Below are positions 2-4,493 of a stretch of DNA of 5,199 bases, one piece after another; position 1 is the first letter of the stretch, and the number at the start of each line of letters is the position of its first letter. The notes under the pieces are model-generated. The model had not been told where the DNA came from. It saw only the letters and a program-made list of their open reading frames with translations, and did no database searches. Position numbers and translations under genes: made by a program. Source of the DNA: Candidatus Fermentibacterales bacterium (GTDB lineage Bacteria; Fermentibacterota; Fermentibacteria; Fermentibacterales; JAFGKQ01); assembly GCA_016928495.1 (NCBI GenBank), contig JAFGKQ010000285.1:1-5199 (forward strand). The letters are read 5' to 3'.

Positions 2-151
2 ACGGACGTGCAGGCGCTCCTGGACAGCTGGGAGAAGCTCCTCGGAATGGGTGCCACGACGATCTGGCCGGCGCACGGCAGGCCTTTCCCGGCATCCGTC
101 ATCAGGAAGAGAATGGGCCGGCGGCGCCTGGCCGGGCCCCCCCGGGACTAG
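2..151 (+). CDS. MBL-fold metallo-hydrolase, C-terminal fragment (5' end outside window)
   Basis: Only the last 49 codons are present, read in the second frame from the left edge to a TAG stop. The visible part has a helix (LLDSWEKLLGMGA) followed by the strand and turn TIWPAHGRPFP. An 'I-x-P-A-H-G-x-P-F/P' element near the C-terminus is typical of metallo-beta-lactamase-fold hydrolases, where this His is the last metal ligand of the binuclear site. The tail is short and basic (RKRMGRRR). The substrate cannot be inferred because the HxHxDH core lies outside the window. The stop codon interlocks with that of the convergent gene on the minus strand, so the two transcription units meet with no intergenic space. 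The family call rests on one motif and its context, so it is likely rather than certain. Confidence 0.72.
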   Translation, partial: TDVQALLDSWEKLLGMGATTIWPAHGRPFPASVIRKRMGRRRLAGPPRD

Positions 152-1638
152 AGCACCACCAGACGGGCAGTCACCGCCCCCGCCGGCGTCTCGCACCTGA
201 TCAGATAGGTCCCGCAGGGAACGCGGCCTCCGCCCGGACCGCCCGGGTCCCAGACGACCCCCGCTCCTTCCGGTGACGTCTCCAGCTCCCCCAGGTCGGC
301 GACCATCCTGCCAGAGAGGTCGAAAACCGCAAGGCTCGCGTGCTCACCCCGGGGCCCCGACAGCGAGACAGTGACCGGGCCGGAGGACGGATTCGGCAGG
401 CAACAGATGGAGAGGGCGGCAGGTGCCGGCCCCATGCCGGGAATCCCCTCGCTCGACCTGTAGGCCCGGACGTCAGTCCCGATTCCGCAGACGACCACCG
501 TGCCGTTCTGGCCGAGGGCGGGGCCCCCGATGTTGATGTTGGTCACCGCGGTGTCCCAGAGGGGGTCGAGGTTGGCGGTGAAGGCGTAGAGGCGCCCGCC
601 GGCGAACGAGCCGTTCGAGAAGAACACCGTTCCGTCCGCATCCAGTGCGAGCCTGCACTTGGAGTAGTCCGGAAGCGTGTCCGTCTGAGCAAGGACCGTC
701 CCGTCGTCGGGGTCGACACGAGCCAGGCAGGGGCCGGGGATCACGAAGTAGACCGATCCGTCGGGGCCTACTCCGAACTCGGGACCGGCGGCGTTCACGG
801 TCGGGATGTGCCACTTCTCCGTGAAGCCGGTACCGGTGTCCTCGAAAGCGTAGAAGTAGTCTACCGCCGGGTTGCTCTGGCTGCGGTTGAAGTAGAGGGT
901 CCCGTCCGGCCCCGCCATCGGGGTGCATTGCGCGGTGAACCCGGACATGACCGGGCCATGGTAGAGCTCGGCTCCGGTTTCGAGATCGTACTTCACGAAG
1001 GCGTGACCCCCGGGGACGGCATCGACCACGTAGAAGCCGTCTCCATGGATGCACCCGCCGCACTCCCCGCTGACCGATGCCGTCCTCGAGGCATGCCACT
1101 CGGTCGAGCCGTCGACGCAGTCGATCCGCCAGATGTCCCGGAAGGAAGCGATCACTGGGTCCCCGTCGCCGGCGAACACCACCCCGTCGTAGGCGCCGGC
1201 GTCGATCTCATCGTCCGAGACCCACACCACAGAGCCGTCCGTCACGTCCAGGGCATAGAGGGGAGCGCTCACCGAGGCCCCGTTGCCTCCCCTGGAGGCG
1301 AACACCAGGCCGTTCATCACCCCGGCGATCCAGGTTATCCAGTCACCGGTCGCGTAAGGGATGTCCTCGGCCCACTCCTCCCCACCGGTGGAGAGGTCCA
1401 TGCAGACCACGGGTGAGTCGCCGGGTGTCCCGGGCCAGGCCGCCTGCCTGACCACGAAGAGCAGGTTGCCTTCCGTGACGGGCTGCCACGCGATGAGGGA
1501 GGTCCTGCCGCCCGACCACAGGAGATCGGCCTCTATGGGCCCGACCTCCTCTGTCAGGCAGTTCCTGCCCTGGTTGCCCCCCGAGTTGCTCCAGTCGGCC
1601 CCGGTCAGCGCCATCATCATCACCATCACGAATGCCAT
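148..1638 (-). CDS. Exported PQQ-like beta-propeller protein with C-terminal sorting (T9SS type A / FlgD-Ig-like) domain
   Basis: This 496-residue protein starts with a short hydrophobic segment (MAFVMVMMMALTGA) that looks like a signal peptide, although it has no Lys or Arg before the core. Residues about 35-395 hold repeated blades of the PQQ/quinoprotein type: LYALDVTDGSVVW (128-139), IWRIDCVDGSTEW (169-181), VKYDLETGAELY (215-226), LARVDPDDGTV (305-315), each close to 'h-y-A-L-D-x-x-T/D-G-x-x-x-W'. Residues about 411-496 form a beta-sandwich sorting domain with PNP (415-417), VFDLSGRMV (438-446) and GTYLIR (476-481). Such domains direct export through, or anchoring after, the Por secretion system in Bacteroidetes-like bacteria. 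The dehydrogenase catalytic features of true quinoproteins are not evident, so a structural or binding role is more likely than an enzymatic one. A GGAGGT lies 4 nt before the chosen ATG. The gene is transcribed divergently from the serine hydrolase on the far side of the inverted-repeat segment. Confidence 0.85.
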   Translation of the reverse strand: MAFVMVMMMALTGADWSNSGGNQGRNCLTEEVGPIEADLLWSGGRTSLIAWQPVTEGNLLFVVRQAAWPGTPGDSPVVCMDLSTGGEEWAEDIPYATGDWITWIAGVMNGLVFASRGGNGASVSAPLYALDVTDGSVVWVSDDEIDAGAYDGVVFAGDGDPVIASFRDIWRIDCVDGSTEWHASRTASVSGECGGCIHGDGFYVVDAVPGGHAFVKYDLETGAELYHGPVMSGFTAQCTPMAGPDGTLYFNRSQSNPAVDYFYAFEDTGTGFTEKWHIPTVNAAGPEFGVGPDGSVYFVIPGPCLARVDPDDGTVLAQTDTLPDYSKCRLALDADGTVFFSNGSFAGGRLYAFTANLDPLWDTAVTNINIGGPALGQNGTVVVCGIGTDVRAYRSSEGIPGMGPAPAALSICCLPNPSSGPVTVSLSGPRGEHASLAVFDLSGRMVADLGELETSPEGAGVVWDPGGPGGGRVPCGTYLIRCETPAGAVTARLVVL

Positions 1639-1649: not shown

Positions 1650-1682
1650 GGGACGTAGTTAAAGAAAGTTAAGAAACTTGGC
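1650..1682 (-). repeat. Left arm of 33-bp perfect inverted repeat
   Basis: The reverse complement of these 33 bases is identical to 2985-3017. Pairing follows the rule that paired positions sum to 4667, and it breaks at 1649/3018 and 1683/2984. Within the arm are two adjacent 10-bp units, AGTTAAAGAA (1657-1666) and AGTTAAGAAA (1667-1676), and a small hairpin AAGTT-AAGA-AACTT (1666-1679). The outer end begins GGGACGTAG. The arm ends 11 bp upstream of the beta-propeller ATG and so forms part of that gene's 5' region. Confidence 0.93.
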
Positions 1683-1959
1683 CTTTTACTATTTCTTGGG
1701 AAGGATAATAGCTGTACCAGCTATCGCAGCACTTACCGCAAGGAATCTACCCCTTTCAGCAATCCAGGAACATCCGATGCGGACAATCTGCAGCCACCTC
1801 CTGGATGGCCGACCGGGCTCGAGAGACAGAATGGGGCACCTTCTGGGGCACGTTCGTTCAGGTATGACGCCTGTCGCTGCAGTCGAATGTGGTTGCAGCC
1901 CGGACACGGGTCTCGTGCCCGGGCTGCACCTCGCCTACCGGATCGCAGGCAGTCGGTCT
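1683..1959. other. Non-coding stretch inside left arm
   Basis: There are 277 bp between the left arm and the stop codon of the barrel gene. The first ~50 bp are AT-rich compared with the rest of the window and include a perfect 7-bp hairpin, ATAGCTG-TAC-CAGCTAT, at 1708-1724. This is a plausible place for promoter or operator sequence of the beta-propeller gene, but no clear -35/-10 pair was found on the minus strand. A second, GC-rich hairpin at 1895-1927 lies nearer the barrel gene. Open frames crossing the region on either strand resemble no family I recognise. Confidence 0.5.
1895..1927 (-). terminator. GC-rich hairpin after the barrel gene
   Basis: GCAGCCCGG (1895-1903) pairs perfectly with CCGGGCTGC (1919-1927). 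A further 4-bp CACG/CGTG stem lies inside after a single mismatch, closing a 5-nt loop. An outer T-A pair at 1894/1928 extends it. The hairpin lies 32 bp past the stop codon of the barrel gene, where a transcription terminator or 3'-end stabiliser is expected. It has no following U-tract on the minus strand, so it is not a canonical intrinsic terminator. Confidence 0.4.
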
Positions 1960-2562
1960 CTAGAAACCAGTACCTATCATGCCGCGGAAGGCCCAGTGGT
2001 TGAAGTCATAGGACTCATTGAAGTCCTCTGGCTCCAGGGAAACGATGTGGTAGACACCTTCTACCCCGGCGTACACCTTCGGGGACACGTTGGTGAGATA
2101 GCCGCCGCCTATGTTGAAGCCTATGCCGCTCTCGAGGTCTCCGTCGACCGTGTACCCATACCACTCATCGTAGTACTCGACAGAGCCAGAATAGGAAGCC
2201 ACGCCACCTCGCGCGAAGAATGACTCCGCGATGAAGTACCGCCCGACAAGACCTATCGTCGTCATGGAGAGGTCGAGCGTCTCATCCCAGTAGTAGCCTG
2301 CTTCGTAGTACTCCTCTTCCCACGAGAACTCCTTGGCACACAGCTCGAACTCCGCTCCCACCTGGAACTTCGGAGAGACCTGGTAGAAGAACTGCGCACC
2401 GGCCGGAACGTATGCTTCCTGATCCCACGGATCCAGGAAGTCTTCGTCAAACGCCGACATTCCGTAGCCCAGGAACCCGTACACGGAGTACTTCCCTGGT
2501 GTCGAGCTCCCGCCTCCAGCAACGAGGCTCATCGACAGCAGTGCCGTCAGAAACAGCGACAT
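1960..2562 (-). CDS. Small outer-membrane beta-barrel protein (OmpA/Opa-like eight-stranded type)
   Basis: The chosen ATG at 2562 gives 200 residues. It is preceded by an AGAGGGGG Shine-Dalgarno-like run and followed by a hydrophobic signal segment (SLFLTALLSMSLVAGG). An in-frame ATG at 2619 is possible but would translate the Shine-Dalgarno region. The mature part shows alternating amphipathic strands rich in Gly and aromatics: KYSVYGFLGYGMS, AQFFYQVSPKFQVGAEFEL, TTIGLVGRYFI, FFARGGVASYSGSVEYY, GIGFNIGGGYL, KVYAGVEGVYHIV and AFRGMIGTGF. The chain ends in Phe, the usual C-terminal signal for outer-membrane barrel assembly. Probable surface loops are strongly acidic (for example EEEYYEAGYYWDET). 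Length and pattern fit the outer-membrane beta-barrel (OMP_b-brl) group; the substrate or partner is unknown. It is the only complete gene between the inverted repeats and looks less GC-biased than its neighbours. Confidence 0.8.
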   Translation of the reverse strand: MSLFLTALLSMSLVAGGGSSTPGKYSVYGFLGYGMSAFDEDFLDPWDQEAYVPAGAQFFYQVSPKFQVGAEFELCAKEFSWEEEYYEAGYYWDETLDLSMTTIGLVGRYFIAESFFARGGVASYSGSVEYYDEWYGYTVDGDLESGIGFNIGGGYLTNVSPKVYAGVEGVYHIVSLEPEDFNESYDFNHWAFRGMIGTGF

Positions 2563-2984
2563 GCTACCCCCTCTAAGTGACAAAGAATGGCCCGGAGACA
2601 GGGCCGCAATAAGAAACACAGGAACTAGAGCCCGACCCGGGGCGCCGCCAAGGCCAAGAGGTCTGCTCGAACCTCCACAGCACCAGCAACGTGGAGATGA
2701 AAGCCTGATTCCCCGATCGAGGTGCTCAGCCCTGCCGCACTGCCCACGATCTCTCTCCGGGCATGTCAGCTGTCAGGCCGGGTCGGGGTTCCTACTCACC
2801 ACGGCCTCGAAGGCAATCCACCCGGAACGTGGCTCGGAAGACGTCGAGGAACCACGTGCTCTGCTGCAATCTCATCGACTCCTCGGTGAACTCCTTCGGA
2901 CGCAAGCCCGGCAGAAGTACACATCCATCCGGTGTGTCTTGCCTACCGAATCAGCCCTCTACCCACTCGAGGGCCTGATGAACC
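2563..2984. other. Long upstream region of the barrel gene, no recognisable gene
   Basis: This is 422 bp between the barrel gene start and the right arm. Immediately upstream of the gene, a short hairpin GGCCC/GGGCC (2589-2605, 7-nt loop) is followed on the minus strand by ATTCTTTGT; it could be a weak terminator or a leader structure. Further out, a minus-strand frame stays open for 52 codons (2792-2950) without a good start or ribosome site, and plus-strand frames are open but resemble nothing I know. It may be decayed coding sequence or regulatory DNA; I cannot assign a function. Confidence 0.5.
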
Positions 2985-3017
2985 GCCAAGTTTCTTAACT
3001 TTCTTTAACTACGTCCC
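2985..3017 (+). repeat. Right arm of 33-bp perfect inverted repeat
   Basis: Identical to the reverse complement of 1650-1682. In this orientation it contains the tandem units TTTCTTAACT (2991-3000) and TTCTTTAACT (3001-3010), then ACGTCCC at the outer end. It stops 12 bp before the serine-hydrolase ATG, so this arm, like its partner, abuts the start of an exported-protein gene. Confidence 0.93.
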
Positions 3018-3023
3018 TATATT
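2995..3023 (+). promoter_or_regulatory. Possible sigma70-like promoter of the serine hydrolase gene (leaderless start)
   Basis: TTAACT (2995-3000, four of six matches to TTGACA) and TATATT (3018-3023, five of six matches to TATAAT) are separated by 17 bp. With standard spacing, transcription would begin at about 3030, the A of the ATG. The -35-like hexamer lies inside the repeat arm and the -10-like hexamer just outside it. The lack of a Shine-Dalgarno sequence before the ATG agrees with a leaderless message. The organism's sigma-factor consensus is unknown, so this is a prediction from generic rules. Confidence 0.4.
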
Positions 3024-3029
3024 CGGGTC

Positions 3030-4493
3030 ATGGTTGCCATGCTGATCGCGGCGGTTCTTGCTGTGGCTCCCCGGCCCGTGCGGACCCCCTGGCCACAGCC
3101 GGAGCAGCGGGCAGCTCTCCCCTGTCCCGACCGGGGCAGGGACTGGATCGAGGTCTACATCATCCAGCAGATGCAGGACCTCCATATCGCCGGGCTGACC
3201 GCCTGCATCGTGGTGGGCGACGAGGTAGTCTGGACCTTCGCCCACGGCTACCAGCAGCTGTTCCCTGAGAGGCTTGCGACCGACTCGACGCTGTTCATGA
3301 TGGCCTCGATATCCAAGACCTTCACCGGGACAGCGGTCCTCCAGCTCTGGGAGGACGGCCTGATAGATCTCTACGCCCGGGTGAACGACTACCTGACGAC
3401 GCTTCAGGTAGAGAACCCGGTGCACCCGTCACCGGACATCAGCATCTGGAACCTGGTGACCCATACCTCCTCGCTCAGGGACAACTGGACGGTGATGATG
3501 GAGCTCTACACCTGGGGCGCTGACTCGCCCATACCCTTGGGCGAGTATCTCTTCGACTACTTCGATCCCTCCGGCGAGTACTACGACCGCAAGCAGAACT
3601 TCTACGACTACCCTCCGGGCGCCTACTGGAACTACTGCAACGAGGCCTACGCCCTCATGGGCTATCTGGTCGAGGAAGTGACCGGTTCGCCGTTCGACGA
3701 GTACTGCAACCAGAACCTCTTCGAGCCCATGGGAATGTACGAGACATCCTGGTTCCTTGCCGATCTCGACACGACACGCATCGCCATGCCCTACCAGTGG
3801 ACGGGGTCGCGCTGGCAGCCCTACGGCCACTACGGTTACCCCGACTACCCGGCAGGACAGCTGCGCACGAGCTCCGGGCAGCTCGCACAGCTTCTCATCG
3901 CGTTCCTGAACGACGGCTGGGTCAACGGCTATCAGCTCCTCGACTCCGCAACAGTGGCGGAGGCGACCACCCTCCAGTGCCCGGGGCTGAACTCCTCGAT
4001 GGGCCTGACCTGGTTCAAGAGCCAGGCAGGCTCACATACCGTCTGGGGCCATGGCGGCGGGGACCTTGGGGTCAGCACGCAGTTCGGCTTCTGCCCCTCC
4101 GAAGGAACTGGAGTGGTGGTCCTCACCAACAGCGATGCGGGATTGTGGAGCATCTTCGTCCAGCTCTTCGACTACGCGGCGGAGCTGACGGGCTGCCCGG
4201 AGCAGGGGCCCCAGCCCGGCGACTGCTGCTCGATCGCGGTCACCCCGAACCCGATGGCACACATGGGCTGGATACTGGTTGGCATGCCGGAGGCCGGGAG
4301 CGCCAGCGTAGCGGTCTACGACCTTGCGGGCAGGGTGGTGATGCAGGTGCTGGAGGAGACACCCCTGCCGATCGGAGCCAGCTCTCTCGCTCTGGACTCC
4401 GGGGATCTGCCTCCCGGGGTCTACGTCGTGGTCCTCCGCACTGCGTACGGATCGAAAGCCTCGAGGTTCATCAGAACAGCGGACACGCGCTGA
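3030..4493 (+). CDS. Exported serine hydrolase, beta-lactamase/EstB/PBP4*-like family, with C-terminal sorting domain
   Basis: The 487-residue protein has a short N-terminal hydrophobic stretch (MVAMLIAAVLAVA), probably a signal peptide. A class C beta-lactamase-related domain spans about 38-385. Its three active-site motifs are intact: S93-I-S-K96 (SxxK, nucleophile Ser and general-base Lys), Y202-C-N204 (YxN) and H341-G-G343, which replaces the KTG of true beta-lactamases. HxG is usual in esterases and D-amino-acid or peptidoglycan peptidases of this family, so hydrolysis of an ester or peptide is more likely than antibiotic resistance. Residues about 399-484 are a sorting domain with PNP (406-408), VYDLAGRVV (429-437) and PPGVYVVVLR (461-470), as in the divergent beta-propeller protein. 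An in-frame TAA just upstream leaves ATG 3030 or 3039 as starts; neither has a clear Shine-Dalgarno. The downstream neighbour converges, leaving a 28-bp gap. Confidence 0.9.
   Translation: MVAMLIAAVLAVAPRPVRTPWPQPEQRAALPCPDRGRDWIEVYIIQQMQDLHIAGLTACIVVGDEVVWTFAHGYQQLFPERLATDSTLFMMASISKTFTGTAVLQLWEDGLIDLYARVNDYLTTLQVENPVHPSPDISIWNLVTHTSSLRDNWTVMMELYTWGADSPIPLGEYLFDYFDPSGEYYDRKQNFYDYPPGAYWNYCNEAYALMGYLVEEVTGSPFDEYCNQNLFEPMGMYETSWFLADLDTTRIAMPYQWTGSRWQPYGHYGYPDYPAGQLRTSSGQLAQLLIAFLNDGWVNGYQLLDSATVAEATTLQCPGLNSSMGLTWFKSQAGSHTVWGHGGGDLGVSTQFGFCPSEGTGVVVLTNSDAGLWSIFVQLFDYAAELTGCPEQGPQPGDCCSIAVTPNPMAHMGWILVGMPEAGSASVAVYDLAGRVVMQVLEETPLPIGASSLALDSGDLPPGVYVVVLRTAYGSKASRFIRTADTR

Follow-up and report, generated by a model that had tools for sequence, protein, structure and literature searches.

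Genes and features of the locus

The window, by which is meant the whole stretch of 5,199 nucleotides analysed from a Candidatus Fermentibacterales bacterium, contains a segment bracketed by long inverted arms, with a gene for a protein with a T9SS-type tail on either side. Its features are the following:

148–1638, minus strand: PQQ/BamB-like repeat protein, T9SS-type tail; its GGAGG ribosome site lies immediately outside the left arm
1650–1682, plus strand: left TIR arm, GGGACGTAGTTAAAGAAAGTTAAGAAACTTGGC; the end signature, with the inner motif, reaches to about 1692
1683–1959, no strand: non-coding interior, 3' of the barrel gene; contains a hairpin (15-bp stem) at 1894–1928
1960–2562, minus strand: probable cargo gene, most likely for a 200-aa outer-membrane beta-barrel comparable in size to NspA/OmpX; signal peptide, ribosome site AGAGGGGG, Phe at the C terminus
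2563–2984, no strand: non-coding interior, 5' of the barrel gene
2985–3017, minus strand: right TIR arm, identical to the left arm and inverted; inner motif from about 2975
2995–3023, plus strand: promoter-like junction, with TTAACT inside the arm and TATATT 17 nt further on in the flank
3030–4493, plus strand: PF00144 serine hydrolase, beta-lactamase fold, T9SS-type tail

The two 33-nt arms are 100% complementary, lie 1302 nt apart and form by far the best inverted repeat of the window. Between the left arm and the start codon at 1638 (minus strand) there are 11 bp, and between the right arm and the start codon at 3030 (plus strand) 12 bp, exactly as the first-pass annotation had described. 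Its picture needs one correction: the PQQ gene shares its strand with the barrel gene and follows it downstream, so that the hydrolase gene alone diverges from the segment.

The barrel gene is the only convincing gene within the segment. A profile built from six of its relatives matches NspA (1p4t) with an E value of 4e-4 and, weakly, 2erv, and the product is most likely an 8-stranded outer-membrane barrel. Searches of the gene against Pfam, NCBIfam and PHROGs returned nothing useful, no homologs were found in phages and viral contigs, and an AlphaFold model computed without an alignment was uninformative (pLDDT 33). Relatives at 32–36% identity occur in three genomes of other lineages, where no long repeats surround them; adjacent tandem pairs of barrel-gene relatives are present in two unrelated genomes (L140, L141). 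The 41 other genomes of the order had no clear relative, only three weak matches. Such absence is poor evidence for a foreign origin of the gene, and that argument was dropped, because one of the neighbouring genes is nearly as rare, being found in a single relative. The GC3 of the barrel gene, 0.75, resembles that of the transposase described below (0.72) and is lower than that of its window neighbours (0.86–0.87), which speaks for the element reading given further on.

In the remainder of the interior, the hairpin at 1894–1928 lies just downstream of the barrel gene and lacks a T run, and a plus-strand open reading frame at 2561–2998 has a GC3 of 0.58 and no family match. No transposase (Y1) fragments were found in the window interior, an Rfam search gave no match above threshold, and no second copy of the interior exists in the host genome, the window element being single copy.

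The arms belong to a mobile family

The host genome is a draft of 2.31 Mb in 337 contigs, estimated to be 81% complete. It contains 17 copies of the arm at up to 3 mismatches, against 0 in a reversed-pattern control, and the repeat is thus far beyond chance. An arm found nowhere else had been named by the first-pass annotation as an argument against a mobile element; the search it proposed points the other way, and the perfect inverted repeats are the TIRs of mobile elements whose family has about 20 arm copies in this genome. A shorter arm pattern occurs in 31 places, among them a second subfamily, GGGACGTAGTTGAACTAATTCAAC. This second type is also seen at L080:4441-4517 and L076:4856-5084 as GGGACGTAGTTGAACTAATTCAACTTACTC, with a GTAG-tagged palindrome resembling a classical REP. 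The window arm is absent from 98 other genomes (0/98), and an exact search of public genomes and viral contigs gave no match.

The inward-facing arm pairs measure 146, 146, 146, 147, 160, 204, 1259 (contig C225) and 1368 bp (the window), and four solo arms complete the set. The six pairs of 146–204 bp, four of them of 146–147 bp, are transposase-less hairpin elements; folded as single strands, the three 146-bp elements and the 147-bp element form long hairpins with z scores of -4.7 to -13.9. These four (L067:9007-9152, L069:8092-8237 and L070:4747-4892, of 146 bp each, and L071:4472-4618, of 147 bp) have arms in common and unrelated cores of 56–57 bp, the length being constant and the core sequence not. 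A further outer inward-facing pair, on contig C28, spans 2.2 kb with resident genes inside, and pairs that enclose resident genes do arise through clustering (C28; G035:C2, 4.3 kb).

Several of the copies outside the window sit at the 3' ends of genes and provide their stop codons, as has been published for REPs; a position between two 5' ends, such as that of the window copy, is unusual. The arm has stop codons in all three inward frames; at L065:1051-1073 and L068:4640-4662, read inward, it appends GDVVKET and a stop to the open reading frames that enter it. No consistent target duplication was found in any copy of the family, which fits HUH transposition, yet takes away a proof of insertion.

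The ends of the window copy carry further marks of the family. Past the 33 bp, element ends have an inner motif of about 10 bp (consensus CATTTATTGG), and it is found at both ends of the window copy (p 0.0001 left, 0.008 right). Both window arms also have G at position 19, where 18/18 other arms have C, and such mirrored changes are not present in the other imperfect arm pairs. This private base bears on whether the locus could be an assembly artefact, in which unrelated segments were joined at repeat copies. Such joins are conceivable in a draft of 337 contigs with a repeat family, but the shared base sets the window arms apart from every other copy, and the word lengths usual in assembly exceed 33 bp, which makes an artefact most improbable.

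A transposase gene with the same ends

At C225:1051-2309 (1259 bp), window-type arms with 1 mismatch in 31 nt surround a Y1_Tnp/RAYT open reading frame. The encoded protein, of 359 aa, has a Y1_Tnp domain (E 9e-8) and matches the RAYT model NF047646 with an E value of 2e-14, which is below the cut-off of that model. In an alignment of its relatives, the HUH motif (NHxH) and RYIHxNP, the context of the catalytic Tyr, are invariant. A second Y1 gene is located on contig C90.

Matches to the C225 transposase are found in 27 of the 42 genomes of the order, and many transposase genes of the order have perfect flanking repeats whose sequence is lineage-specific. Across the order and other phyla, the transposase genes of relatives are bracketed by perfect inverted repeats of about 20–34 bp, 0.9–1.3 kb apart; those from public genomes come from records named Deltaproteobacteria/Desulfobacterales, Nitrospirae, Fermentibacteria and others. 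Of 71 testable loci, 44 had the transposase gene within a perfect inverted repeat of 16 bp or more, compared with 0/71 in the reversed control, and in the same scan 36 loci had GGGG near the outer end. Arms such as GGGGACGTACCACACTTCTTCAACTT are common to relatives in the order and to records named Aegiribacteria and Fermentibacteria. In one relative (L131:1515-5846), two perfect arms of 27 bp point towards each other over a distance of 4.3 kb, with several apparently resident genes between them, likely by chance.

Flanking genes and a possible promoter

The right arm contains an outward-pointing, -35-like TTAACT at 2995–3000, which forms with TATATT in the flank, 17 nt away, the only sigma-70-like promoter called between 1560 and 3100. 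Shuffled sequence yields 0.5 such sites per region, so that the match is weak by itself and its location is what stands out. A start 7 nt beyond TATATT would coincide with the ATG of the hydrolase gene (3030), ahead of which no ribosome site is evident. The private base at position 19 changes a second outward hexamer of the arm from TTAAGT, as in the other arms, to TTAACT, the hexamer of this promoter site. On the left, or PQQ, side no sigma-70-like site was found, and transcription of the PQQ gene may come from the barrel gene, which runs in the same direction. The proposal that the arms drive both flanking genes can thus be kept in part for the hydrolase gene, where the right arm supplies the -35 and the flank the -10, and not for the PQQ gene, where read-through from the barrel gene is possible. 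On this pattern, the arms would alter the transcription of their neighbours.

The same promoter bears on the suggestion that the segment is an invertible switch, in which recombination between the arms would flip the 1302 bp and alter the expression of the flanking genes. Perfect inverted arms are able to recombine, and a promoter-like site does lie across the right arm junction. However, the -10 lies outside the arm and on one side only, and a flip would therefore leave the promoter in place; moreover, the arms are transposon ends with about 20 occurrences, and 33 bp is short for efficient RecA recombination. The analysis turned up no invertase, no site-specific recombinase is encoded in the window, the remaining paired copies are ends of transposons that form hairpins, and the assembly shows one orientation. 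A switch is accordingly very unlikely. Among the processes that the first-pass annotation had listed, it is transposition that holds in kind, since the arm serves as TIR both in a Y1-transposase element and in short hairpin elements.

One element or two arms

The reading favoured here, with a probability of roughly 0.6, is that 1650–3017 is one non-autonomous mobile element, in which TIR ends of the Y1/HUH RAYT type surround a barrel gene instead of a transposase. Single-stranded, the arms would fold back as a 33-bp hairpin, which the transposase encoded on C225 would recognise; it would then excise or copy the segment at a replication fork, and the segment would be inserted without duplication of the target. 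On this reading, the C225 transposase would act on the window copy and the barrel segment would have moved as a unit, the barrel gene being probably a hitch-hiking cargo.

Alternatively, the barrel gene may be a resident on either side of which two separate solo arms landed. The second would probably have hopped there locally from the first, and this would account for the shared private base. The host genome does have four solo arms, and in relatives most arms are single and sometimes clustered within 40 bp (among the matches listed, for one arm family). Such an origin nevertheless requires opposite orientation, a nearly symmetric position relative to the two start codons (11 and 12 bp) and the shared private base. 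Under random placement, 0.004 brackets are expected by chance with the 6 unpaired arms and 0.056 with all 20. One element is favoured over two chance arms because of the private base, the inner motifs and this low chance expectation, and two separate arms around a resident gene are judged less likely, although the solo arms, the clustered arms and the outer pairs with genes inside give that reading some weight.

It could also be that an element of the 146-bp type inserted first and that its core later gained the barrel DNA, so that the whole never moved as a unit. Because the cores of the short elements are mutually unrelated while their length is kept, cores seem to tolerate change; no trace of a short-element core is recognisable in the window, as the cores have no common sequence. 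This order of events appears improbable.

Against the single mobile element stand the interior being single copy and the missing target duplications, both described above, and two further searches. The hydrolase ortholog (59% identity) has different neighbours and no synteny, so that it offers no empty site, and no other cargo-bearing pair was found among the copies searched (in relatives, one arm family among the matches listed).

Relation to known systems

The usual view of RAYTs is that they are domesticated and spread nothing larger than tiny palindromes. Should their long-TIR relatives move whole genes as well, uncultured phyla could gain genes and change promoters by this route; this genome, with a single transposase copy, several short copies, one copy with a gene and about 20 ends, would allow a test. 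It is conceivable, though less likely than not, that single-strand transposases of the RAYT/TIRYT type are able to move passenger genes, with a REPIN-like TIR pair here carrying an outer-membrane gene, and that a -35 borne on the arm makes a hybrid, possibly leaderless, promoter for the neighbour at the landing site. Passenger-gene cassettes of classical ISs are known, and no precedent for a RAYT/REPIN or TIRYT with passenger genes was found in the open-access literature searched.

The closest published systems are of three types. TIRtrons, or TIRYTs, are TIR-associated tyrosine transposases (PMC3733652), mostly assigned to subclass 2.1 of TnpA-REP (PMC6006769). The arm family and the C225 transposase are of this kind and are related to REPINs: C225 and the short copies present a RAYT-like Y1/HUH transposase within long TIRs that carry a motif starting with GGGG, and in both cases there are moderate families of dispersed TIR copies, as singles and dimers. 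The G at 1649, which precedes the left arm, gives a GGGGACG start, and the left end, GGGGACGT, fits the first six of the eight positions of the published motif GGGGWSAS (GGGGAC, then GT), while the right end lacks the fourth G. The window copy differs in having an unrelated gene inside and no transposase; it is a derivative and not itself a TIRtron.

REPINs are inverted REP doublets mobilised by RAYTs (PMC3116915). The copies of 146–147 bp resemble them in their inverted arm pairs, set spacing, variable cores and hairpin folding, although the arms here are long TIRs and not short palindromic REPs. At 1368 bp and with a gene inside, the window copy falls outside the definition of a short doublet.

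Finally, mobile insertion cassettes (MIC/MICE) are non-autonomous IS derivatives with a coding sequence (PMC5444012). The locus is like them in having transposon ends around a passenger gene, a transposase elsewhere and, within one genome, MITE versions that lack a gene, and the window copy agrees with their definition in that its ends enclose a coding sequence (1960–2562) and no transposase. To our knowledge, known MICs use double-strand-cutting transposases, whereas the ends here belong to a single-strand HUH transposase and there is no target duplication.
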